A stretch of 64,000 nucleotides of DNA from positions 1 through 64,000 of the forward strand of contig DYJC01000013.1 in NCBI GenBank assembly GCA_020723305.1, read 5' to 3'. Positions within the stretch are counted from its first letter, which is position 1. Each line of letters begins with the position of its first letter. A program made the translations under genes and the position numbers. A model generated the notes under the pieces. It was given only the letters and a program-made list of their open reading frames with translations. It was not told where the DNA came from and did not search any database. Origin of the DNA: Desulfosudis oleivorans. GTDB lineage: Bacteria > Desulfobacterota > Desulfobacteria > Desulfobacterales > SURF-7. This document shows, piece by piece, positions 9,653-20,448 of this stretch.

Positions 9653-10867
9653 TCAATCCGGTGTCTCACTTTTTCCATCCAGAAGATCGATGGATGGTTT
9701 TCCGGTGATTTCACATAGGATTTCACTGGCAACCGGAGGGCATCCTTTGATAAAGGTTCTGTTTTTTCCGATATTGGCCGTGCAGTTTCCGATACAGATG
9801 GTGTTTTTCGGAATGGTTTCATGACCCTTGCCGATGGCAAATTGGATCAGCTCATCTTTTGGAAAATAGTCCAGAATGACCTTCCGGTATCGTTTTAAAA
9901 ACAGCAGAAGCGTGGATTGGCATGCACTGCATGAATTTTTGTCATGCACTTTTACATTGGGAAATTCGATGGACAGATTTTCCGGTGGAGGAAGAAACGG
10001 TGTGATCCAGTTTTCCCAGTTTTCCGGAGAAACCTGAATCTGAGCAAGATCAATGACCCCAAATCCGCGTTCTGCTCCCATGAAAAGATGAGGGATCTTT
10101 TCTGCGGTTGTGCCCATCAGACGGCAGGCAACTGCATCTGCTGCAAAGGGATCAAGACCCGCCAGGACAACGCCGAAAGGTCTGGCTTTACCGGCACTGG
10201 GCCCCAGACCTTCCATACCCACGGTTCCGTCAATGATGGAAAGGTGAGGGCGGAGAACCGCGGACATGTCCGCTATAGCGATATTGATCGGTTTTTCCTT
10301 ATTGCCTGAAACCGGCGGCAGCATGTGCAGATCCACCTTGCTGCGCCGCCACAGGCAGCCTTTCATGTTTTTGATGGACAGGGACACGCCGGTGTGCATG
10401 TGCATTTTCATCACGGGTATGGAAACCAGGAAATCAAACCTGAAAATCGGATTGCAGGCTTTAAATCCCTTGACTGCAATTCCGTCCGGCGCAGGCAGGT
10501 CCACATACTTTCCCTCATTCAGGTCGATCAGCGAGCACTTCCGCTTGTCAACAACTTCAGTAATCCCTGCAGCATCAAAGGCCTCCATGGTATCCACGCC
10601 TACAATGGGGCTTTCGCCGATCGCTACATCCGCACCGATTTCCATAAACCAATCTATTGCTGCTGCGACAACCCTGGAATCCGTGATAATGCCTTGTCCC
10701 CGGGGAGCGATCCGTCCCACATTGGGTTTGAGCAGAACCCGTTTGTTTTTCAGAAAGGACAGGTCAAGCTGTTTCAATACCGCGCGTGTGTTTTCGTAAG
10801 GGTCATCACCTTTGGCAACATGAACCTTTTGGTTCACTGGAAATTTTTGGGAAAACAGGATGGTCAT
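9653..10867 (-). CDS. DUF362 domain protein, last gene of the aro operon
   Basis: The 404-residue product matches the DUF362 family over most of its length: VLLKPNVGR near residue 45, VAIGESPIVG, the HTGVSLSIKNMKG segment and the DPFAADAVACRLMG helix. The C-terminal ~110 residues carry cysteines in CSACQS, CIGNCTANIG and GCPP, which may bind metal or a cluster. Members are often annotated as Fe-S or iron-regulated proteins, and the biochemical role is not settled. It begins 2 bases after the aroC stop codon, so it is cotranscribed with the shikimate genes. That placement is the only functional clue. Confidence 0.82.
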   Translation of the reverse strand: MTILFSQKFPVNQKVHVAKGDDPYENTRAVLKQLDLSFLKNKRVLLKPNVGRIAPRGQGIITDSRVVAAAIDWFMEIGADVAIGESPIVGVDTMEAFDAAGITEVVDKRKCSLIDLNEGKYVDLPAPDGIAVKGFKACNPIFRFDFLVSIPVMKMHMHTGVSLSIKNMKGCLWRRSKVDLHMLPPVSGNKEKPINIAIADMSAVLRPHLSIIDGTVGMEGLGPSAGKARPFGVVLAGLDPFAADAVACRLMGTTAEKIPHLFMGAERGFGVIDLAQIQVSPENWENWITPFLPPPENLSIEFPNVKVHDKNSCSACQSTLLLFLKRYRKVILDYFPKDELIQFAIGKGHETIPKNTICIGNCTANIGKNRTFIKGCPPVASEILCEITGKPSIDLLDGKSETPD

Positions 10868-10869
10868 GG

Positions 10870-11922
10870 TCAGGATATCACCTTTTGCCGCAGCAGATGA
10901 TCTGCAAGCACCAGGTTGACCATGGCCTCACATACCACATTGATCCTCGGGATGGCCGAAATATCATGCCTTCCCCGGGTTGAAATGATTCTCGGATGGT
11001 TGGAGATGTCGATGGTTGTCTGCTCCCGGGTGATGGAAGGAATCGGCTTGACCGCAACCCGGATCACGATATCATCACCATTGGAGATTCCGGCCAGGAT
11101 TCCGCCTGCGTTGTTGGTCTGAAATCCATCCGGAAGAATCGGGTCGTTGTTTTCCGAACCCAGCATTCTGGCTGCCTGAAACCCGGCGCCGATCTCCACG
11201 CCTTTTACCGCACCGATGCTCATGAGCGCTCCGGCAAGCTGGGCATCCAGTTTGTCAAACACCGGCTCCCCCAGTCCTTTTGGTACATTTCGGGCAAGGA
11301 TCTCCACAATTCCGCCAAGGGAATCACCTTGCTTCCGAACCTCGGTAACCCGCTGTTCCATTTTTTGGGCGGCTTCTGCATCCGGGCATAAAAACATGTT
11401 GTCTGAGATCTGATCCAGGTTCCGATGTTTGGCCTGGATACCGCCCAGTTCAATGGTATAGGCAATGACCTGAATGCTGTTCCGTTCCAGCAGAGCACCG
11501 GCAACCGCACCAGAGGCAACCCTGGCAACGGTTTCCCGTGCAGATGCGCGTCCACCGCCACGATAATCCCGTATTCCGTATTTTGCCTGATAGGTTATAT
11601 CTCCGTGTCCAGGACGATACAGATCGGCGATTTTACTGTAAGCAGATGAATCCGCATCCTGGTTGTTTACAATAATGGTGATCGGCGTGCCTGTAGTCAT
11701 GTTTTCAAAGACCCCGGATAGAATAATGGCCTGATCCGCTTCTTTCCTGGATGTGCTGGTAATGGAACCACCGGGTTTTCTCCGGTCCAACATCTTCTGG
11801 ATCATGGACGCATCAAGGGGTATCCGGGGAGGACAGCCGTCAACGGTTACACCAACGGCTTGTCCATGGGATTCACCCCAGGTGGTGATCTGAAACAGTT
11901 TTCCAAATGTGTTGCCGGACAT
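10870..11922 (-). CDS. aroC: Chorismate synthase
   Basis: AroC converts 5-enolpyruvylshikimate 3-phosphate to chorismate using reduced FMN. The 350-residue length is normal. The N-terminal signature [19 protein letters not shown], the [14 protein letters not shown] segment, the [19 protein letters not shown] signature and the C-terminal RHDISAIPR region are all present. It is preceded by a 280-base spacer holding two palindromic repeats and is followed at 2 bases by the DUF362 gene. Confidence 0.97.
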
Positions 11923-12202: not shown

Positions 12203-12712
12203 CTATATTTTTTTTTGGATCAGATCACAGATCTCCTCGATTGTCATCCAGTCCGTATCAATGGAAAAATCCATGGCACTCTCATAAATCGGATTCCGGA
12301 AATTCAGGGTTTCTTCGATTTCATCAAAGATTCCTTTATCTGTCAATGCCGGTCTGTTGTTTCCGGTACTTTTATCATTGGCCATTCTCCGGGCAATGGT
12401 TTCCGGCCTGGCTTTGAGCCAGATCACCTTGCCCGTGGTTCTCATGATGCCGACATTTTCCGGGTCCAGAACAGCTCCACCACCGGTTGCGATCACGTGA
12501 TGATTCAGACAACTGAGTTTCCGGATAATCGCTTTTTCAATGCTTCGGAAGGAATTCCATCCTTCTTTTTCCACAATCTCGGAAATCGGCCGTTTCTGCT
12601 CCTTCACCAGTTCAACATCCGCGTCCAGCATGGGCCAGGAAATCTTCCGGGAAAGAAGTTCTCCCACAGTTGTTTTTCCCGTGCAGCGGTATCCGATCAG
12701 ATAAATATTCAT
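12203..12712 (-). CDS. aroK: Shikimate kinase
   Basis: The product phosphorylates shikimate at the 3-hydroxyl with ATP. From ATG at 12712 it has 169 residues, the usual size. It has the P-loop GYRCTGKTTVGE, the DADVELV acidic motif of the shikimate site, the FRSIEKAII helix with its arginine, and GGGAVLDPEN. A longer reading from 12769 is possible, but the P-loop would then lie too far in. The chosen start overlaps the aroA stop by four bases (ATGA), a classic translational coupling. Confidence 0.95.
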   Translation of the reverse strand: MNIYLIGYRCTGKTTVGELLSRKISWPMLDADVELVKEQKRPISEIVEKEGWNSFRSIEKAIIRKLSCLNHHVIATGGGAVLDPENVGIMRTTGKVIWLKARPETIARRMANDKSTGNNRPALTDKGIFDEIEETLNFRNPIYESAMDFSIDTDWMTIEEICDLIQKKI

Positions 12713-13971
12713 GAGGGGTACAATCCTCCAAATACAACCCAGTAGTTGGGAAATGATTTCCGGACGCATTTTTCATCCTGTATGACAATTCCAGGCACCA
12801 CCAGTCCGGCAATGGAAAAACTCATGGCCATTCGGTGATCGTCATAGGTTTGAATCAAAGTTCCGTGGGGTTTTCCGCCGATAATCTCAAGTCCGCTGAC
12901 ACCGGCCATGGCCTTTATTCCCATCCGGTTCAGCTCGGCAGCAACACAACCCAGACGGTCGCTCTCTTTTTCTTTCAGATGGGCCACATTGGTAATCCGG
13001 GTGGTTCCTGTTGCAAAAGCTGCCACAACCGCCAGGGTCGGAACAATATCCGGCATATCGGACATATCCACCTCGACAGCAGACAGCTTTCCGCCCGTAA
13101 TCGTTATTCCGTCCGGCTCATGCTGAACCGTACAACCCATTTTTTCAAGCACCTCGTAAAACCGGACATCTCCCTGTCGGGAAGCTTTTGTTATTCCGTT
13201 TACCTTGATACTGGCGCCGGTTACTGCCGCCGCTCCCCAGAAGTAGCTGGCCTGGGAACAATCCGGTTCAACCGCATATCGCCCGGATTGGTAGGTCTGG
13301 CCTCCGGGAATGTGATAAAATGTATGACCCTTGCCGGTTACTTCGATACCAAGCCGGTTCAGGATATCCACGGTCATATCAATATAGGGTTTGGATACCG
13401 GACCTTGGGTGATATGGATGGTCAGTCCTTTTTCCAGGCAGGGAGCCATTAGCAGAAGGGAAGAAAGGTACTGGCTGCTGACATGGCATTTCAGATCAAC
13501 AGTGGTTCCGGTTATGTTTCCTCCTGTAATCTGAACCGGCGGGCAGTTGTTGTGGTTCATGGATACGGCCCGGACTCCGATCTGGTTTAATCCGTCCAAA
13601 AGATCGCCAATGGGTCTTTCTCCCATCCGCTGAGTGCCGGTAAGGGTGTAAGTTCCCTGACCCAGAGCGCAAATTCCGGTCAGGAGCCGCATGGAGGTTC
13701 CGGAATTCGCAAGGTAAATGGAATCATCACACGGTTTGAACGTGCCTCCCAGTCCGGTTATTTCGATTTCATCTCCGGAATCCTTTACCGGAATTCCCAT
13801 CTGTTTAAGGGCTGCCAGGGTGAGAAGGGTATCCTCGCTTCTCAGCATATTTTCAATGCGGCAGGTTCCATTAGAAAGCGCTGCCGCTATCAGCAGCCGG
13901 TGGGTATAGCTCTTTGACCCCGGAACGGTGACAGCGGTATTTTTGATTTTTTCCGTTCTGATTGTAATCAT
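12709..13971 (-). CDS. aroA: 3-phosphoshikimate 1-carboxyvinyltransferase (EPSP synthase)
   Basis: EPSP synthase joins phosphoenolpyruvate to shikimate 3-phosphate. The 420-residue product shows the N-terminal PGSKSYTHRLLIAAALSNG motif, LANSGTSMRLLTG, the SSQYLSSLLL segment, KEKESDRLG and DDHRMAMSFSIAGL. All substrate-binding elements of the family are visible. It starts 6 bases after aroE ends and overlaps aroK by four bases. Confidence 0.97.
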   Translation of the reverse strand: MITIRTEKIKNTAVTVPGSKSYTHRLLIAAALSNGTCRIENMLRSEDTLLTLAALKQMGIPVKDSGDEIEITGLGGTFKPCDDSIYLANSGTSMRLLTGICALGQGTYTLTGTQRMGERPIGDLLDGLNQIGVRAVSMNHNNCPPVQITGGNITGTTVDLKCHVSSQYLSSLLLMAPCLEKGLTIHITQGPVSKPYIDMTVDILNRLGIEVTGKGHTFYHIPGGQTYQSGRYAVEPDCSQASYFWGAAAVTGASIKVNGITKASRQGDVRFYEVLEKMGCTVQHEPDGITITGGKLSAVEVDMSDMPDIVPTLAVVAAFATGTTRITNVAHLKEKESDRLGCVAAELNRMGIKAMAGVSGLEIIGGKPHGTLIQTYDDHRMAMSFSIAGLVVPGIVIQDEKCVRKSFPNYWVVFGGLYPS

Positions 13972-13977
13972 CTTTTT

Positions 13978-14793
13978 TTATTCTCCAAGAGCCTTGAGCA
14001 CGACATTCCGCATGATATCCACCGGAGCTTTTTTTCCGGTCCACATCTCGAACTGGGCAACACCCTGGTAGACAAACATGGAAACTCCGTCCACAATCGT
14101 ACATCCGATTTTTACGGATTCCGTCAGCAGTCTGGTGTGCAATGGATTATAGATGATGTCCATCACCACGCGGTTCGGCTTCAGGTCTTTCCGTTCCACC
14201 GGCATTTTGTGAACTTCAGGAGACATACCCACAGGTGTTGCATGAATCAGGATATCATAGTCAAATCGTCCAAATTCGGATAGGGGATAGCAGGGGACAC
14301 CAAGATCCTTTGACAACCGGGCTCCTTCATCCTCCAGAATGTTTAAGATTATCAGTTTCCCGCCATGGGCCAGAATCCCGAACCCGATGGCACGTGCTGC
14401 ACCTCCGGCTCCAATCATCACGACATTTTTTCCATGGACCTTTGTTTTTTCCAGAAGGGCGTTGATTGCTCCCATACAGTCGGTATTGTATCCATACAGT
14501 TTTCCATCCTGGTTCACTACAGTATTGACAGCACCGATCTTTATCGCCATGTCATCGATCTCATCCAGGAGATTCATGACAGCAACCTTATGGGGTATGG
14601 TCACACTCAGGCCTTTTACCCCAAGGCCTCTCACACCGGCAATGGCGGATTCAAGATCCGTAACATGAAAGGCAAGATAGGCTCCGTTATAGCCGGTTTC
14701 CATAAACGCACGGTTATGCATCACCGGACTCAGGCTGTGTTCAATCGGGTTTCCGATCACGCCGTATAATGAGGTTTTTGTGTTGGGTTGCAT
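13978..14793 (-). CDS. aroE: Shikimate dehydrogenase
   Basis: AroE reduces 3-dehydroshikimate to shikimate with NADPH. The 271-residue product carries the substrate motif NPIEHSLSPVMHNRAF, the catalytic Lys region SVTIPHKVAVM, NTDCMGA and the Rossmann loop GAGGAARAIGFG. It lies 116 bases after pheA in an AT-rich spacer and 6 bases before aroA. No 3-dehydroquinate dehydratase gene is in the operon, so that step must be encoded elsewhere. Confidence 0.96.
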   Translation of the reverse strand: MQPNTKTSLYGVIGNPIEHSLSPVMHNRAFMETGYNGAYLAFHVTDLESAIAGVRGLGVKGLSVTIPHKVAVMNLLDEIDDMAIKIGAVNTVVNQDGKLYGYNTDCMGAINALLEKTKVHGKNVVMIGAGGAARAIGFGILAHGGKLIILNILEDEGARLSKDLGVPCYPLSEFGRFDYDILIHATPVGMSPEVHKMPVERKDLKPNRVVMDIIYNPLHTRLLTESVKIGCTIVDGVSMFVYQGVAQFEMWTGKKAPVDIMRNVVLKALGE

Positions 14794-14909: not shown

Positions 14910-15989
14910 TCACACTCCAACAGACTTCGGATACGACCCCAGCACCTTCAAAAACAGACACTGCTCCTTCATACGGGCGATGGTCTCCTGCACTTTTTTG
15001 TCCTCCAAATGTCCTTCCAGATCCACAAAGAAAAAATAACTCCAATTCTCATGCTTGCTGGGCCTGGATTCCAGTTTCATCATATTGAGCTGCGCCTCGG
15101 CAATTGGCGCCAGACTTTTATACAAAGATCCCGGCACATGTGCGGCGGCAAACATCAGGGAGGTTTTGTCGTTTCCTGTGGGAGGCATCTCTTTTTTTCC
15201 TATCACCAGAAAGCGGGTGGTGTTGTTGGAATGATCCTCGATCCTGGATGCCACCACATTCAGGTTGTAAATCCTGGCTGCTTCACTGCTGGCAATGGCC
15301 GCAGCATGATACATATCTCCTACTTTCTGGGCGGCAAACGATGTGCTGCTGCATTCCTCCAGCCTTACATTGGGAAGGTTTTTCCGGAGCCATACCCGGC
15401 ACTGAGCAATGGGCTGGGGATGGGAATACACCACCTTGATATCCTCAAGTTTTCCGCTCCTGGACAGCAGATCGTGGGAAATGGTCTGGTATTTTTCCGC
15501 ACAGATCTTCATGCTGGATTCAAAAAACAGGTCCAGGGTGTAGTTGACGGAACCTTCAATGGAGTTTTCCACCGGAACCACGCCAAAGTCGCACCGTTTT
15601 TTTTCCACCTCGATAAACACATCCCGGATGCTGAGCTGGGGAAGGTAGGAAGCAGAACTTCCAAAATGGCTCATGGCTGCAATATGGGTAAAGGTCGCTT
15701 CCGGGCCCAGGTAGCTGATTTTCCGGGGTCGGTAAGCCTCTCTGGACAAACCGAAAATTTCATGAAACAGCAGACGAAGACGATTCTGATCCAGCGGGCC
15801 GGTGTTCTGCCCGGAAAGCCGGTGAATGGTTTTTTCTTCTTCTGAAAGCAGATGGATATCTGCATTGTCGTCAGTCTGTCGCAACAGACCTAGTTTTTCA
15901 GCAATCTCAAGCCGTTTGTTGATCAGTTCCAGAATCCGGTCATCAATGGCCCGGATCGAATCCAACAGGGGTTCATGGTGATCTGTCAT
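14910..15989 (-). CDS. pheA: Bifunctional chorismate mutase / prephenate dehydratase (P-protein)
   Basis: PheA makes phenylpyruvate from chorismate through prephenate. Residues ~1-90 form an AroQ-type chorismate mutase (DSIRAIDDRILELINKRLEI). The dehydratase domain follows, with YLGPEATFTHIAA, VVPVENSIEGSVNYTLD and the catalytic NNTTRFLVIG. An ACT regulatory domain closes it, with ESRPSKHENWSYFFFVDLEG. The ESRP and ACT elements imply feedback inhibition by phenylalanine, as known in the family. It starts 12 bases after dehydroquinate synthase II ends. Confidence 0.97.
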   Translation of the reverse strand: MTDHHEPLLDSIRAIDDRILELINKRLEIAEKLGLLRQTDDNADIHLLSEEEKTIHRLSGQNTGPLDQNRLRLLFHEIFGLSREAYRPRKISYLGPEATFTHIAAMSHFGSSASYLPQLSIRDVFIEVEKKRCDFGVVPVENSIEGSVNYTLDLFFESSMKICAEKYQTISHDLLSRSGKLEDIKVVYSHPQPIAQCRVWLRKNLPNVRLEECSSTSFAAQKVGDMYHAAAIASSEAARIYNLNVVASRIEDHSNNTTRFLVIGKKEMPPTGNDKTSLMFAAAHVPGSLYKSLAPIAEAQLNMMKLESRPSKHENWSYFFFVDLEGHLEDKKVQETIARMKEQCLFLKVLGSYPKSVGV

Positions 15990-16001: not shown

Positions 16002-16994
16002 TTATTTTTCCGTAATGGTTTCTTCAATCTTATGTCCAAAATGCCGCGCTCCCTGTTCCACAGCAGTCAGGATTTTATCTCCGGGCTTCAAGGAAACTAC
16101 GGATACCGGTTTTCCGGAAGGATCGGTCAACCGGATGGTTTCCGCATTCTGGAGAATGGTGGTGGCCTCTTTGTTGCCTATTTTTGCCTTGAGAAGCATC
16201 ATAGGCCGTTTTTCAATCTTGAGCCGGCCGACAATTCCTACCGTGGTTTTTCCCTGATAATCCGTAATCAGGATCTGATCTCCGGACTCCAGCTCCGACA
16301 GATAGCGTGTCTTTCCTCCGGGAACACGGGTGTAGGCATGAACTGCCCCTGCGTTCACCCGGAATGGGCGAGGGGAGACATACGGATTGGAAATACTTTC
16401 CGCATGAACCAGAAACAATGCTCCGCTGCTGTTTCCCACCAGCATTCCTTCACCGGGATTCATGGAGGTGCAGGTATCCACACATACCCGGTCGCCCATG
16501 CCCACCGGCTTGACTTCGATGACTTCTGCAATCTGCAGCGGAGTTTTTTCTCCTTCTTCCCGCAGACAGGAAAGACATTTTTTCAGTTCAAGGGGATCGG
16601 TCGTATGGAGCAGGAGATGGCTGACTCCGATTTCAAGAATACCGCAGGCGGTTTCCGCTTCTTCGAGGCATTGTACCTGGGTTATGACATTGGCTCCTTT
16701 GGCAATAAGATTTTCAAGAGGAATGATGGTCCAGTCCGTACACTGGAGAATCACCTGCTTGCTTTTGGTAAGCTTGACAATCTCCTCTTCATCTTTCCCG
16801 CTGGTAATGGTGAAGAAAACCACATCCTTGCCCGGCTTCAGGTCTCCGTCTTCGGAAATGGTGGTGATCCGGCCCAGTTCTTTTACCTTGTCCGAGTAGC
16901 CTTTGGGCACCATGATCGCATCCGCGCCGCCTTCCAGGGCGGTTGTCACTAGTTCCTTGTCCCACGGGTCTACCTTTACCCATATCTTTCGCAT
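16002..16994 (-). CDS. aroB': 3-dehydroquinate synthase II (archaeal type)
   Basis: In the ADTH route this enzyme performs an NAD-dependent oxidative deamination and cyclisation of 2-amino-3,7-dideoxy-D-threo-hept-6-ulosonate to 3-dehydroquinate. The 330-residue product has the family opening IWVKVDPWDKELVTTALEGG, the ADAIMVP segment, GDRVCVDTCTSMNPGEGMLVG and FRVNAGAVHAY. I start it at ATG 16994, which has GGAGG nine bases upstream, rather than at 17021. It is unrelated to bacterial AroB. The neighbouring ADTH synthase gene supplies its substrate. Confidence 0.95.
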   Translation of the reverse strand: MRKIWVKVDPWDKELVTTALEGGADAIMVPKGYSDKVKELGRITTISEDGDLKPGKDVVFFTITSGKDEEEIVKLTKSKQVILQCTDWTIIPLENLIAKGANVITQVQCLEEAETACGILEIGVSHLLLHTTDPLELKKCLSCLREEGEKTPLQIAEVIEVKPVGMGDRVCVDTCTSMNPGEGMLVGNSSGALFLVHAESISNPYVSPRPFRVNAGAVHAYTRVPGGKTRYLSELESGDQILITDYQGKTTVGIVGRLKIEKRPMMLLKAKIGNKEATTILQNAETIRLTDPSGKPVSVVSLKPGDKILTAVEQGARHFGHKIEETITEK

Positions 16995-17045
16995 TCTTTG
17001 TTTCCTCCATATATAAAGCACCTTGATAGTGCAGGACTATCTAAA

Positions 17046-17223: not shown

Positions 17224-18027
17224 TTATTTGCCCCCTAAAATTTTCAACCCCTCTTCAACCGTCCCGCCTTCATGAACAATATGAGAAATCGCCCGTACCA
17301 TCCTGCTTGGATCTGCATGCTGGAATACATTCCGGCCAATGGAAACACCGGCTCCGCCTGCATCGATTGACCCTTTGACCATCTCCAGGATATCTTTATC
17401 AGAATCCATTTTTGCCCCGCCTGCAATCACTACGGGTATGGAACAACCTTCCACCACTTCCCGGAAGGATTCCGGACTGCCGGTATAGGAAACCTTTACA
17501 ATATCCGCACCTATCTCATCACCGACTCTGGCTGCATGTTTGATCACATCCACCCCATACTCATCCTTGATTTTATCGCCCCTGGGATAGATCATGGCCA
17601 GCAAAGGCATTCCCCAGGTTCTGGCTTCATAGCTGACCCGTCCGAAATCCTGAAGCATCTCTTTTTCCTGACCATTGCCCAGGTTCACATGGATGGATAC
17701 CGCATCCGCACCCAGTTTTAAAGCTTCCTCAACCGAGCATACCAGGGTTTTGGCATGGGGATAAGGGGAGAGGTTGGTGGAAGCGGACATATGAATGATC
17801 AGCCCGATATCATTGCCTCCCCGCCGATGGCCTTCGCCCACAAGTCCCTTATGCTCCACAATCGCGTTTGCCCCGCCTTCGGCAACCTTCTGCACCGCCT
17901 CCTTCATGTTGATCACGCCCGGAATCGGCCCGACCGAAATCCCGTGATCCATAGGAACAATCACGGTTTTTCCGGTGTTCCGGTTGATGATTCTCTCCAT
18001 CCTGATCTGTTTTCCGATGATCGTCAT
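17224..18027 (-). CDS. aroA': 2-amino-3,7-dideoxy-D-threo-hept-6-ulosonate (ADTH) synthase
   Basis: This class I aldolase-like enzyme condenses L-aspartate semialdehyde with 6-deoxy-5-ketofructose 1-phosphate, replacing DAHP synthase. The 267-residue product contains [39 protein letters not shown] and the Schiff-base lysine region [10 protein letters not shown], ending in [14 protein letters not shown] strong AGGGGGG ribosome site precedes ATG 18027. It is the first structural gene after the leader peptide and attenuator. A fructose-bisphosphate aldolase of the same DhnA family is the alternative, but the adjacent dehydroquinate synthase II makes ADTH synthase much more likely. Confidence 0.93.
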
Positions 18028-18093: not shown

Positions 18094-18127
18094 AAAGGGC
18101 CGCGAAATTTTTTTTTCACGGCCCTTT
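18094..18127 (-). terminator. Second hairpin of the tandem attenuator, upstream of ADTH synthase
   Basis: In the operon direction, AAAGGGCCG (18127-18119) pairs with CGGCCCTTT (18102-18094) around an A-rich loop, followed by TTTTTCG. This is a GC-rich stem with a U-tract and should terminate RNA 67 bases before the ADTH synthase start. Its 5' arm contains GCCGTGA, which can pair instead with TCACGGC, the 3' arm of the first hairpin. The two hairpins may therefore be alternatives. Confidence 0.75.
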
Positions 18128-18144
18128 GTTTTAAAAAAGGAAAA

Positions 18145-18172
18145 AGCCGTGAACTTCGGTCTGCTCACGGCT
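18145..18172 (-). terminator. Attenuator terminator hairpin of the aromatic operon
   Basis: On the minus strand AGCCGTGA (18172-18165) pairs with TCACGGCT (18152-18145) around a 12-base loop, extended by flanking A-T pairs to 18176 and 18141 and followed by TTTTTCC. It begins about 25 bases after the stop of the aromatic leader peptide. The loop contains GCAGACCG (18164-18157), exactly complementary to CGGTCTGC within codons 20-23 of the leader (18224-18217). That is the antiterminator pairing expected of a ribosome-mediated attenuator. Confidence 0.8.
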
Positions 18173-18199
18173 TTTTTGCTTTGTATGTTTTCTATGGAA

Positions 18200-18283
18200 T
18201 CAGTTCATACAGCCAGGCAGACCGGTGATATAATACCACCAAAAATAGCTATAATAAAAGCTGCCTGAAAATATGTTGTTCAT
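18200..18283 (-). CDS. Aromatic-rich leader peptide of the shikimate/aromatic operon
   Basis: This 27-codon ORF runs from ATG at 18283 to TGA at 18200. It has ten aromatic residues, nine of them packed in residues 9-18 (FYYSYFWWYY), plus Phe5. AAGGA lies 12 bases before the ATG, a slightly long spacing. Codons 6-8 hold CAGGCAG (18267-18261), which can pair with CTGCCTG in codons 22-24 (18220-18214). That second segment overlaps the region that can instead pair with the terminator loop. This reproduces the 1:2, 2:3 and 3:4 logic of trp and pheA leaders. Ribosome stalling when charged tRNA-Phe, -Tyr or -Trp is short should expose the antiterminator. Expression of the peptide is inferred. Confidence 0.85.
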   Translation of the reverse strand: MNNIFSGSFYYSYFWWYYITGLPGCMN

Positions 18284-18318
18284 CTGTCCGCTGATTCCTT
18301 TCGACCTTTTGCAAGATC

Positions 18319-18345
18319 CCTATACCAGAATTTTTTCTATGTCAA
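18319..18345 (-). promoter_or_regulatory. Putative promoter of the leader and aro operon
   Basis: On the minus strand TTGACA (18345-18340) is followed after 15 bases by TATAGG (18324-18319), with TG one base upstream giving an extended -10. The short spacer and imperfect -10 are weak points. Transcription would start near 18312, leaving a ~30-base 5' end before the leader ATG. No TrpR- or TyrR-like operator was recognised. Confidence 0.45.
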
Positions 18346-18523
18346 GGCATTTTACGGGAATATGTGCAATTTAATGGGCATCTAATAATTTTTCGATTCA
18401 AGGCCTTTAATAATATATGGAGACTTGCATGTCTGTCCGCAGAAGACCACATTGCTTCACCAAAAGACATTATTCTGTATGCAATGTGTACCGACATTCC
18501 AGTGTCATGTTCAACAGTTATTC

Positions 18524-18552
18524 GTCATTCCGGGCCTGACCCGGAATCCAGT
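18524..18552. repeat. Palindromic intergenic repeat, half copy 3
   Basis: This is the left half (GTCATTCCGGGCCTGACCC, then GGAATCCAGT) of the repeat seen complete at 17124 and 11976. The right half is degraded to TGCCGGAATCGATTCGG around 18572-18588. It lies in the 18346-18890 gap, where I see no gene: the longest open frame there runs through the repeat and has no recognisable protein features. Confidence 0.65.
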
Positions 18553-18890
18553 GCTTTTACCTTGTGTCTTGTGCCGGAATCGATTCGGTTCCAGTTCATG
18601 CTGGACACACAGGCAGCCAGTGCCTTTCAAACCTTCAAAATCTCGCAAAAAATCAACACCGTCAGTTCAGATTACAAAATAGATGCCATGCGTATTAACT
18701 TCTCAAACTCGCTTGACATTTATCACTCTAAATGAAAGATATGCTCCATAGCCTCAAGAGATTTTAGACGATATGTATCAACAGCGAATGTTTTTATACT
18801 GAGAAATAGATTCGCGGGTGTATCCTAAAAAAACCTAACGTACCTGTAAGTTAATGTTCTTCCGAAAATTATTAAGGAATCGGGCTCAAA

Positions 18891-19448
18891 ATGCCAAATG
18901 AAACAATGAATATAATTCATGAAAAACGGATTTTGAACATAATACTTGTTATAAGGGGAGAAAAGGTAATTTTGGACTCCGATTTGGCTATGCTTTACGG
19001 CGTGGAAACGCGACGACTCAATGAACAAGTGCGTCGAAATATAGATAAATTTCCGGAAGATTTTATGTTTCAATTAACCAAGGATGAATTCACAAACTTG
19101 AAATCGCAAATTGCGACATCAAGTTCAGGATGGTGAGGTCGGCGGAAATCACCATTAGTTTTTACCGAACATGGAGCACTGCAGGCGGCGAATGTTTTAA
19201 ATTCATCGCAAGCCAATAAAATGAGCGTTTACATCGTCCGGACTTTTATTCGGCTTCGGGAGATGGCGCTTGCCAATGAAAAACTATCACATAAGGTTGA
19301 ACAACTGGAAATTAGGGTTGGTGATCATGATGAGATATTGATTGAATTGGTTCAGGAAATTCGAAAGTTGGTTGATACACCGAAACTTAAAAACAAGCGG
19401 AACTCAATCGGCTTTATTATGCCGAACAAAAAGAAAAAGAAGTCATAG
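18891..19448 (+). pseudogene. ORF6N (KilA-N-related) domain protein interrupted by one in-frame TGA
   Basis: The single frame 18891-19448 encodes an ORF6N-type protein, common on phages and mobile DNA and thought to bind [23 protein letters not shown], the [18 protein letters not shown] stretch and VFTEHGALQAANVLNSSQA are diagnostic, with a coiled-coil C-terminus after RTFIRLREM. Codon 82 (19134-19136) is TGA where relatives have Gly in the GWGGRR stretch. A single GGA to TGA change explains it, with no frameshift. The remainder looks intact, so inactivation is recent, or rare readthrough occurs. Alternatively two half-proteins could be made, since ATG 19221 starts the coiled-coil half. Confidence 0.75.
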
Positions 19449-19637
19449 AAAGAGGTCACGGGAACTCAATGGGAGTTCGCCAAAAAGCTTTACCACCAGA
19501 ACGAAGGAGAAAAATATTCGCTCTATGTAGTTTCTAATGCTGGTAAATTAAATGCTAAAATTAGAATATTAAGAAATCCAATTAACCTTTGGAAAGATGG
19601 AAAGCTTTATGCACATCCAATTAATTTTAGAATTTAA
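19449..19637 (+). pseudogene. C-terminal scrap of a DUF3883-like protein
   Basis: Immediately after the ORF6N stop, the same frame reads VTGTQWEFAKKLYHQNEG, then EKYSLYVVSNAG and NPINLWKDGKLYAHPINF, to a TAA at 19635. This pattern (end of a conserved beta strand, Y-x-L-Y-V-V-x-N, then a P-x-x-L-W-x-x-G-x-L-x-A-x-P tail) recalls the C-terminal portion of DUF3883 domains, which occur in restriction and helicase proteins. There is no start codon or N-terminus. The assignment is tentative. Confidence 0.4.
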
Positions 19638-19698
19638 AGCAATCGGTATTATGACCTCTATTTTTTCCACCCTATTCAGATTATTGTAAAGAGAATTT

Positions 19699-20448
19699 AT
19701 GTACCGAGGAAGCCGAAAGCACATCCTGGACTGGACGTCATACCCTGATTTTTTGAGACAGCTCGAAAATCTCATTGGATTACCGGAGTGTTCAATTGCA
19801 CATTCTTCTTACTGGCAACCCAGAGGTTACAAAGAACCTGATGAGGCCTGTCTGGAGGACTGCGGAGACAGGTTCATACCCGGCGTTGATTGCTGGAATA
19901 ATCTTGCCTCTTGGTGGCTCCGTCATCGTCGTGGCGCAAACACGCCGAATTGGGATCTCGTAGTCGCTGGGAAACTGTGGGGGCAACCCGGCCTTGTACT
20001 GGTTGAGGCAAAAGCGCATGAGAAGGAGCTTAACAGGAATGGCAAACGTCTTCTTAAAAAAAGATCGGACAACTCCTCTGAGAACCATGAGTATATTGGA
20101 CGTGCGATTGCCGAGGCATCATCCGCACTTGATAAAATTATTCAGGGTGTCCGGATATCGCGTGACTCCCATTACCAGCTTGCTAATCGCGTGGCTTACA
20201 GTTGGAAGATCGCCTCAATGGGAGTGCCGGTGCTTTTGGTTTATCTTGGCTTTACCGGTGACGCAGGCATTGCCAACGTCGGAGTACCATTTAAGGATAA
20301 TGAGCACTGGCAATCTGTGATGAGGATTTATTCTGATGGTGTGCTTCCCGAAGGCTTTACTGAACGCAGGATTCCTTGTGGCAAAGCAGATATGTGTATG
20401 ATCATCCGGTCAATGGATGTTCTGGAGCAGAGCCATGGTTCAGAATAA
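19699..20448 (+). CDS. Hypothetical protein with PD-(D/E)xK-like nuclease motif
   Basis: This is a 249-residue protein that I cannot assign to a named family. The segment NWDLVVAGK, then GLVLVEAKAHEKEL, has the D, E-x-K spacing of the PD-(D/E)xK nuclease core (Asp near residue 85, Glu and Lys near 102-104), flanked by hydrophobic strands. A downstream ENHEYIGRAIAEASSALDKI helix is rich in conserved-looking polar positions. The ORF starts at ATG 19699. It lies in an accessory islet with ORF6N, DUF3883 and toxin-antitoxin pieces, which suits a restriction or defence role. Catalysis is not proven. Confidence 0.6.
   Translation: MYRGSRKHILDWTSYPDFLRQLENLIGLPECSIAHSSYWQPRGYKEPDEACLEDCGDRFIPGVDCWNNLASWWLRHRRGANTPNWDLVVAGKLWGQPGLVLVEAKAHEKELNRNGKRLLKKRSDNSSENHEYIGRAIAEASSALDKIIQGVRISRDSHYQLANRVAYSWKIASMGVPVLLVYLGFTGDAGIANVGVPFKDNEHWQSVMRIYSDGVLPEGFTERRIPCGKADMCMIIRSMDVLEQSHGSE

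Follow-up and report, generated by a model that had tools for sequence, protein, structure and literature searches.

The trpL, pheL and hisL leaders of E. coli are ribosome-mediated attenuators, as is the ilvGMEDA leader (Ile/Val/Leu), in which several related amino acids are sensed together. Attenuated operons of this class are listed in PMC1183508. Ahead of aroF, the aroR leader of C. glutamicum (Neshat et al. 2014, as cited in the available part of PMC11802643) carries Phe-Tyr-Phe and responds to Phe and not to Tyr, while the uORFC-13-1 motif holds at least one Phe (PMC8632094, available in part). An attenuator before Desulfovibrio vulgaris aroA'-aroB'-pheA appears as a computer prediction of 2005 from the Merino database (PMC1173090, Table 7, available in part), and the available text of PMC3641672 describes tandem attenuators with two separate leader ORFs in Salmonella mgtCBR. 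No described Phe/Tyr/Trp leader was found in the literature, for which only open-access papers were considered. The minus strand of the window (the whole 64,000-nucleotide stretch of Desulfosudis oleivorans DNA analysed here) contains what is very probably, in the absence of expression data, a ribosome-mediated transcription attenuator reading charged tRNA-Phe, tRNA-Tyr and usually tRNA-Trp jointly and controlling a common chorismate operon.

Leader ORF, RNA segments and downstream operon

The earlier note had described a 27-codon minus-strand ORF with the run FYYSYFWWYY at 18283-18200, and direct reading confirmed both the ORF and its coordinates. The features of the leader region and of the operon are as follows, all on the minus strand.

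18319..18345, minus: promoter-like site, TTGACA (18345-18340) and TATAGG (18324-18319), read by eye; weak
18296..18300, minus: Shine-Dalgarno-like AAGGA of the leader ORF, read from the sequence
18283-18200, minus: leader peptide ORF (ATG 18283-18281, TGA 18202-18200), 27 aa, MNNIFSGSFYYSYFWWYYITGLPGCMN, with order-level homologues
18261..18267, minus: segment 1, CAGGCAG, directly 5' of the aromatic codons; 87% of cells paired with segment 2, with covariation
18230..18259, minus: putative regulatory codons FYYSYFWWYY, frame-locked in position relative to segment 2 in 64/64 aligned relatives
18214..18226, minus: segment 2, ACCGGTCTGCCTG, containing CTGCCTG (18220-18214); alternative partners are segment 1 or the hairpin-1 loop
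18157..18164, minus: segment 3, GCAGACCG, in the hairpin-1 loop; antiterminator partner of segment 2
18141..18176, minus: hairpin 1 (terminator 1), 14 bp stem and U-tract; from folding, terminator scan and covariation
18115..18122 with 18153-18146, minus: proposed relay helix, hairpin-2 5' arm GCCGTGAA with hairpin-1 3' arm TTCACGGC
18094..18127, minus: hairpin 2 (terminator 2), 14 bp stem and U-tract; from folding, terminator scan and covariation
17224..18027, minus: ADTH synthase (2-amino-3,7-dideoxy-D-threo-hept-6-ulosonate synthase), first operon gene; NCBIfam TIGR01949, 363.6 bits against a cut-off of 299.45
16002..17021, minus: 3-dehydroquinate synthase II; NCBIfam NF002627, above cut-off
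14910..15989, minus: chorismate mutase / prephenate dehydratase; NCBIfam NF008865, above cut-off
13978..14793, minus: shikimate dehydrogenase; NCBIfam
12709..13971, minus: 3-phosphoshikimate 1-carboxyvinyltransferase (aroA; EPSP synthase); NCBIfam
12203..12769, minus: shikimate kinase-like; best NCBIfam match below the curated cut-off
10870..11922, minus: chorismate synthase; NCBIfam

After chorismate synthase, a 404-aa protein of uncertain function (9653-10867, minus) matches NCBIfam only below threshold (Npun_F2552 family). No convincing gene was seen at 18364-19699, which covers some 1.3 kb ahead of the leader. The promoter-like site has a spacer of only 15 nt, with a TG ahead of the -10, and is absent from the output of the promoter scan, which requires 16-18 nt. 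AAGGA lies 12 nt upstream of the leader ATG, so that a short ORF with a ribosome-binding site stands ahead of the operon, although its translation is inferred. Among the 2,394 ORF tails of the window the leader ORF was the sole one with at least eight aromatic residues in ten, and windows simulated with a first-order Markov model (86,905 ORF tails) gave one tail with 8/10 and none with 9/10. The aromatic-rich leader ORF is far above chance expectation.

Folding of the leader RNA, which the earlier note had proposed as a check, gave -83.9 kcal/mol for the 252-nt RNA, far below the shuffled mean of -53.2 kcal/mol (z = -6.9). The scan found two terminator-like hairpins in the leader region, against 0.2 expected in shuffled sequence, and both sit ahead of the first structural gene, ADTH synthase. 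The U-tract hairpin of the earlier note is indeed present (18176-18141), but it is not single, since a second terminator (18127-18094) had been overlooked. The two complementarities claimed for segment 2, with CAGGCAG at 18267-18261 through CTGCCTG at 18220-18214 and with the hairpin loop at 18164-18157, were correctly placed, and both pairings covary among relatives. Because hairpins 1 and 2 have arm sequence in common, a helix can also form between the 3' arm of the first and the 5' arm of the second.

Minimum-energy folds of the growing window RNA passed from the antiterminator at 78-84 nt to hairpin 1 at 90-114 nt, then to the antiterminator together with the relay helix at 120-132 nt, and finally to both terminators after the last arm had emerged. 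In the full-length RNA the terminated fold is the more stable, by a mean of 9.8 kcal/mol; thermodynamics by itself gives no preference for the antiterminated state in these full-length folds, and antitermination must therefore be kinetic, as in classical attenuators. In three relatives (L011, L029 and L066) the minimum-energy fold after the leader stop is the pair formed by the hairpin-1 3' arm and the hairpin-2 5' arm rather than the two terminators.

Conservation and covariation among relatives

Orthologs of the window ADTH synthase were located in genomes of the same order, giving 30 loci including the window's own, and an aromatic-rich short ORF was present ahead of ADTH synthase in 30/30. 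A second set, partly overlapping the first, comprised 80 ADTH-synthase loci from named genomes, nearly all of them Desulfobacterales-type MAGs with few isolates (e.g. Desulfatibacillum alkenivorans and Desulfobotulus alkaliphilus). The leader was found in 73/80 of these loci, or 73/78 of those with enough upstream DNA, two misses being at contig ends; the five loci without a detectable leader that appear to be real misses are L056, L067 and L107-L109. The earlier note had held that homologous loci without the aromatic run, or without the paired segments, would refute the attenuator. The run was present in the 30/30 and 73/80 loci, and the segment 2/3 and 1/2 pairings covary in 64 relatives; the attenuator interpretation came through this check.

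The leader peptide can be recognised throughout the order. Of 92 distinct leaders, 91 contained Phe and Tyr codons and 65 contained Trp codons; all three kinds were combined in 64. The claim of the earlier note that Phe, Tyr and Trp are read in combination is supported by comparative sequence as far as the attenuator is concerned, but Trp codons are in just 65/92 leaders and the invariant part is Phe plus Tyr. Leaders used TTT more often than the adjacent gene did (91% versus 55%), and likewise TAT (82% versus 64%), a bias to which local AT content could contribute. When ADTH synthases of the whole phylum were considered, additional and more diverged F/Y/W leaders were found in several families (e.g. 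FFSWYYFAYF and GFYFWYWF), while no leader was visible to the scan before the others.

Covariation was counted in an alignment of 64 sequences (A2) built without structural input. The pairing of segment 2 with the hairpin-1 loop was kept in 87% of cells, with changes on both sides in 6/8 pairs, and hairpins 1 and 2 were paired in 95.5% and 95.8% of cells, respectively, with 12/16 pairs doubly changed. The relay helix was paired in 94.6% of cells and showed double changes of its own. The opposite-arm combination, used as its control, was paired in 89.5% of cells, with a covariation of 0.167 as against 0.250 for the relay pairing. In each of three counts (antiterminator plus relay, hairpins 1 and 2, and segments 1:2) the covariation score exceeded every one of the 500 shuffles and every slid control; the shuffle test can be inflated by relatedness, and the slid controls weigh more. 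The mutually exclusive 1:2, 2:3 and terminator helices are thus all backed by compensatory changes.

Paired changes can be read in individual loci, such as CCGATCTGCC/GGTAGATCGA in L042, CCGGCCTGCC/GGTAGCCGG in L049, TCGACCTGCC/GGTGGGTCG in L031 and AGGTCCGCCC/GGGCGGATT in L110. In distant lineages (Desulfobacca/Syntrophobacterales-like; L091, L100, L103 and L104) segment 2 and the hairpin loop are altered jointly, both sides being swapped together (GTGCGCC with GGCGCAG). Swap tests pointed in the right direction but were weak, both for segment 2 and the loop (-19.2 kcal/mol with the own partner versus -16.2 kcal/mol with that of another species) and for the relay arms (-13.8 versus -12.4 kcal/mol), because the consensus is common to most species; counting by alignment column provides a better test. 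A further, inner helix close to the stop codon (GCGCT/AGCGC), attractive by eye, is not claimed; it was paired in only 34% of cells in A2, a value partly due to an offset in how it was placed there.

The spacing of the leader follows the same pattern across the alignment. Segment 2 begins in reading frame 0 in 64/64 sequences, the aromatic run extends from codon -12 to codon -3 ahead of it with Trp mostly at -7/-6, and the stop codon most frequently ends 21 nt past the segment 2 start (39/64). From the known footprint, segment 2 would be covered by a ribosome that has reached the stop codon and would stay free if the ribosome stalled within most of the run. The leader has the geometry expected of an attenuator, with the stop codon near segment 2 and the regulatory codons over or after segment 1.

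Proposed mechanism, rival readings and the second terminator

The sequences show the ORF with its codon run, alternative helices that are conserved and covary, a frame-locked geometry and two terminators. Stalling, termination and its dependence on amino acid supply are inferred, as is the relay step, there being no transcription, ribosome or expression data. With all three amino acids in ample supply, the ribosome would pass the aromatic codons and halt about 21 nt past the segment 2 start, where it would cover segment 2, allowing hairpins 1 and 2 to fold and transcription to end before ADTH synthase. If any one of the three were short, the ribosome would stall within the run, masking segment 1 and leaving segment 2 free to capture the emerging hairpin-1 loop, so that hairpin 1 could not close; the freed hairpin-1 3' arm would then pair with the hairpin-2 5' arm, and both terminators would be lost. 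Without translation, segment 1 would hold segment 2 and the terminators would be expected to form.

It is possible, though unlikely on balance, that Phe and Tyr are the main signals read by the leader and that its Trp codons are incidental. A pheA gene sits in the operon, Trp is missing from 27/92 runs when Phe and Tyr are in 91/92, and the Phe-Tyr-Phe leader AroR responds to Phe alone of its two amino acids in the available part of PMC11802643; yet Trp, a rare residue, is in 65/92 runs and concentrated at -7 and -6, the window run holds two Trp codons, and Trp is also found in the leaders of other families of the phylum. A small, aromatic-rich and membrane-like peptide that is itself functional, with the hairpins as ordinary terminators of its own transcript, would agree with a peptide sequence that is recognisable across the order. 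We consider this very improbable, as the conservation tracks the RNA (segment 2 encodes GLPG), F, Y and W substitute freely for one another while the helices covary, and the trpE leaders described below are unrelated peptides with W blocks that nevertheless match the same hairpin model. The strong structure ahead of a biosynthetic operon could also suggest a metabolite riboswitch or a T-box, the ORF being a chance frame, but this is barely credible: an Rfam search of the window, which included amino-acid leaders (e.g. Trp_leader and Phe_leader), T-box and riboswitches, gave no family above its gathering threshold, and a run this aromatic, absent from simulated sequence, is frame-locked in 64/64 relatives. 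The joint reading of the three charged tRNAs by an attenuator remains the preferred interpretation.

Within that interpretation, the role of hairpin 2 has to be considered separately. The U-tract of hairpin 1 is absent in L026, L031, L088, L095 and L096, though hairpin 1 itself is kept, and is also missing by eye in L027, L118, L121 and L126; in the lineages whose hairpin 1 has lost it, hairpin 2 is the only predicted terminator. The two hairpins probably act as a relay, in which segment 2 opens hairpin 1 and the freed arm opens hairpin 2; the relay step is inferred from the interchangeable and covarying arms, the retention of hairpin 1 without a U-tract and the growing-chain folds. The surplus of relay covariation over the opposite-arm control is only moderate and could partly reflect homogenisation of the arms. 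The attenuator could instead be real with a leader that switches hairpin 1 only, hairpin 2 being an independent back-up or fixed partial terminator that owes its likeness to a duplication without any relay. The U-tracts on both hairpins in the window, the frequency of tandem terminators in general, the possible homogenisation of direct repeats and the occurrence of hairpin 1 alone in Desulfobacca-like lineages are all compatible with such an arrangement. We regard it as rather doubtful, because the relay helix, paired in 94.6% of cells in the 64 relatives, has its own double changes and lies above the opposite-arm control, because the conservation of hairpin 1 despite a lost U-tract is sensible if hairpin 1 governs hairpin 2, and because the operon would stay off with an unswitched hairpin 2. 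Hairpin 2 could still be a simple back-up terminator. The several lineages whose hairpin 1 has lost its U-tract provide a natural test of the ability of one hairpin to switch another.

The element before other genes and in relation to known systems

A covariance model running from segment 2 through hairpin 2 recovered the window's element from its own genome at 2.5e-22 and gave matches in 189/194 genomes of the order at E <= 1e-3, about 140 of them at E <= 1e-10. Since the antisense strand of the window element scores 8e-6 and ordinary tandem terminators may match, weak matches (E about 1e-8 to 1e-3) were not counted as evidence; only strong matches, or elements whose leader was read individually, were used. 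Forty elements were examined, picked for the most part from second matches and from genomes lacking a close ADTH-synthase ortholog, so that the counts are not frequencies. Family checks placed 18 of them before DAHP synthase, 18 before trpE, two before ADTH synthase, one before pheA and one before aroE. Of the last two (L239 and L219), the pheA leader has Phe and Tyr codons and no Trp, and the run before aroE is decayed.

The leaders before DAHP synthase are mixed F/Y/W (e.g. MQTSWGRYYFYFWYYFNTGLPGVR), and the loci with such an attenuator are L211-L218, L220-L224, L227, L228, L230, L238 and L250. ADTH synthase and DAHP synthase, two first enzymes without homology to each other, thus share one predicted RNA element. 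The earlier note had tied the leader to an archaeal-type shikimate operon; this link did not hold, as the same element precedes an ordinary DAHP synthase where there is no close ADTH-synthase ortholog. The 18 trpE elements, from other genomes of the order, have leaders with W blocks (mean 3.3 W). In the genome of the window, trpE (G000:C45:172084-172220, L174) has a WWW leader, MRRNRNITVTCFHWWWRTCFRKLACGTIPV, also with tandem hairpins, while ilvD (G000:C36:99639-99772, L176) has an Ile/Leu/Val-rich leader, MKNSVIINLVLILIIILVVRVVPYCEEKG, with a single terminator. A second ADTH synthase of this genome (G000:C45:200124-200897; L172, L002), accompanied by its own prephenate dehydratase gene, lies behind a separate aromatic-rich leader, DYLYSCYCFFGFFSWL, and one terminator; this second synthase outscores the window copy on TIGR01949. 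The mixed F/Y/W leaders of ADTH and DAHP synthases, the W blocks of trpE and the I/L/V of ilvD indicate that codon content follows the place of the gene in its pathway. We lean slightly towards a phylum-wide device, in which a three-amino-acid leader with a two-step RNA relay would have been retained at the aromatic commitment step while ADTH synthase and DAHP synthase were exchanged, with a Trp-only sister before trpE.

Such a device would explain how aromatic flux is set in a large group of sulfate-reducer type, with either the usual or the archaeal-type pathway entry. The trpE genes of the same genomes, with a Trp-only leader of similar design, offer a natural series for testing codon content as the setter of the signal, and the covariance model of the element can be used for annotation.

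The leader resembles the E. coli ilv, trpL, pheL and hisL class in having an ORF rich in end-product codons and exclusive 1:2, 2:3 and terminator pairings, and differs from the ilvGMEDA leader in carrying an aromatic rather than a branched-chain trio, in its two terminators with exchangeable arms and in the absence of an Rfam match. With the D. vulgaris prediction it shares the same first genes and a delta-proteobacterial host; the available portion of PMC1173090 is silent on any leader peptide or its codon content, on comparative support and on a second terminator. Like Salmonella mgtCBR it has more than one attenuation element per leader, but mgtCBR has two leader ORFs and another operon and signal, and no two-terminator relay is described in the available part of PMC3641672. 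As with aroR of C. glutamicum and uORFC-13-1, a short aromatic-codon ORF precedes the first enzyme of the aromatic pathway, with a terminator downstream; unlike the window leader, aroR has Phe-Tyr-Phe only and uORFC-13-1 at least one Phe, and Trp is unmentioned for both in the available parts of those sources. The known aromatic leaders that were found respond to one amino acid (trpL and pheL) or hold codons for Phe and Tyr only (AroR), whereas the window leader joins the codons of all three end products before the pathway that they share.
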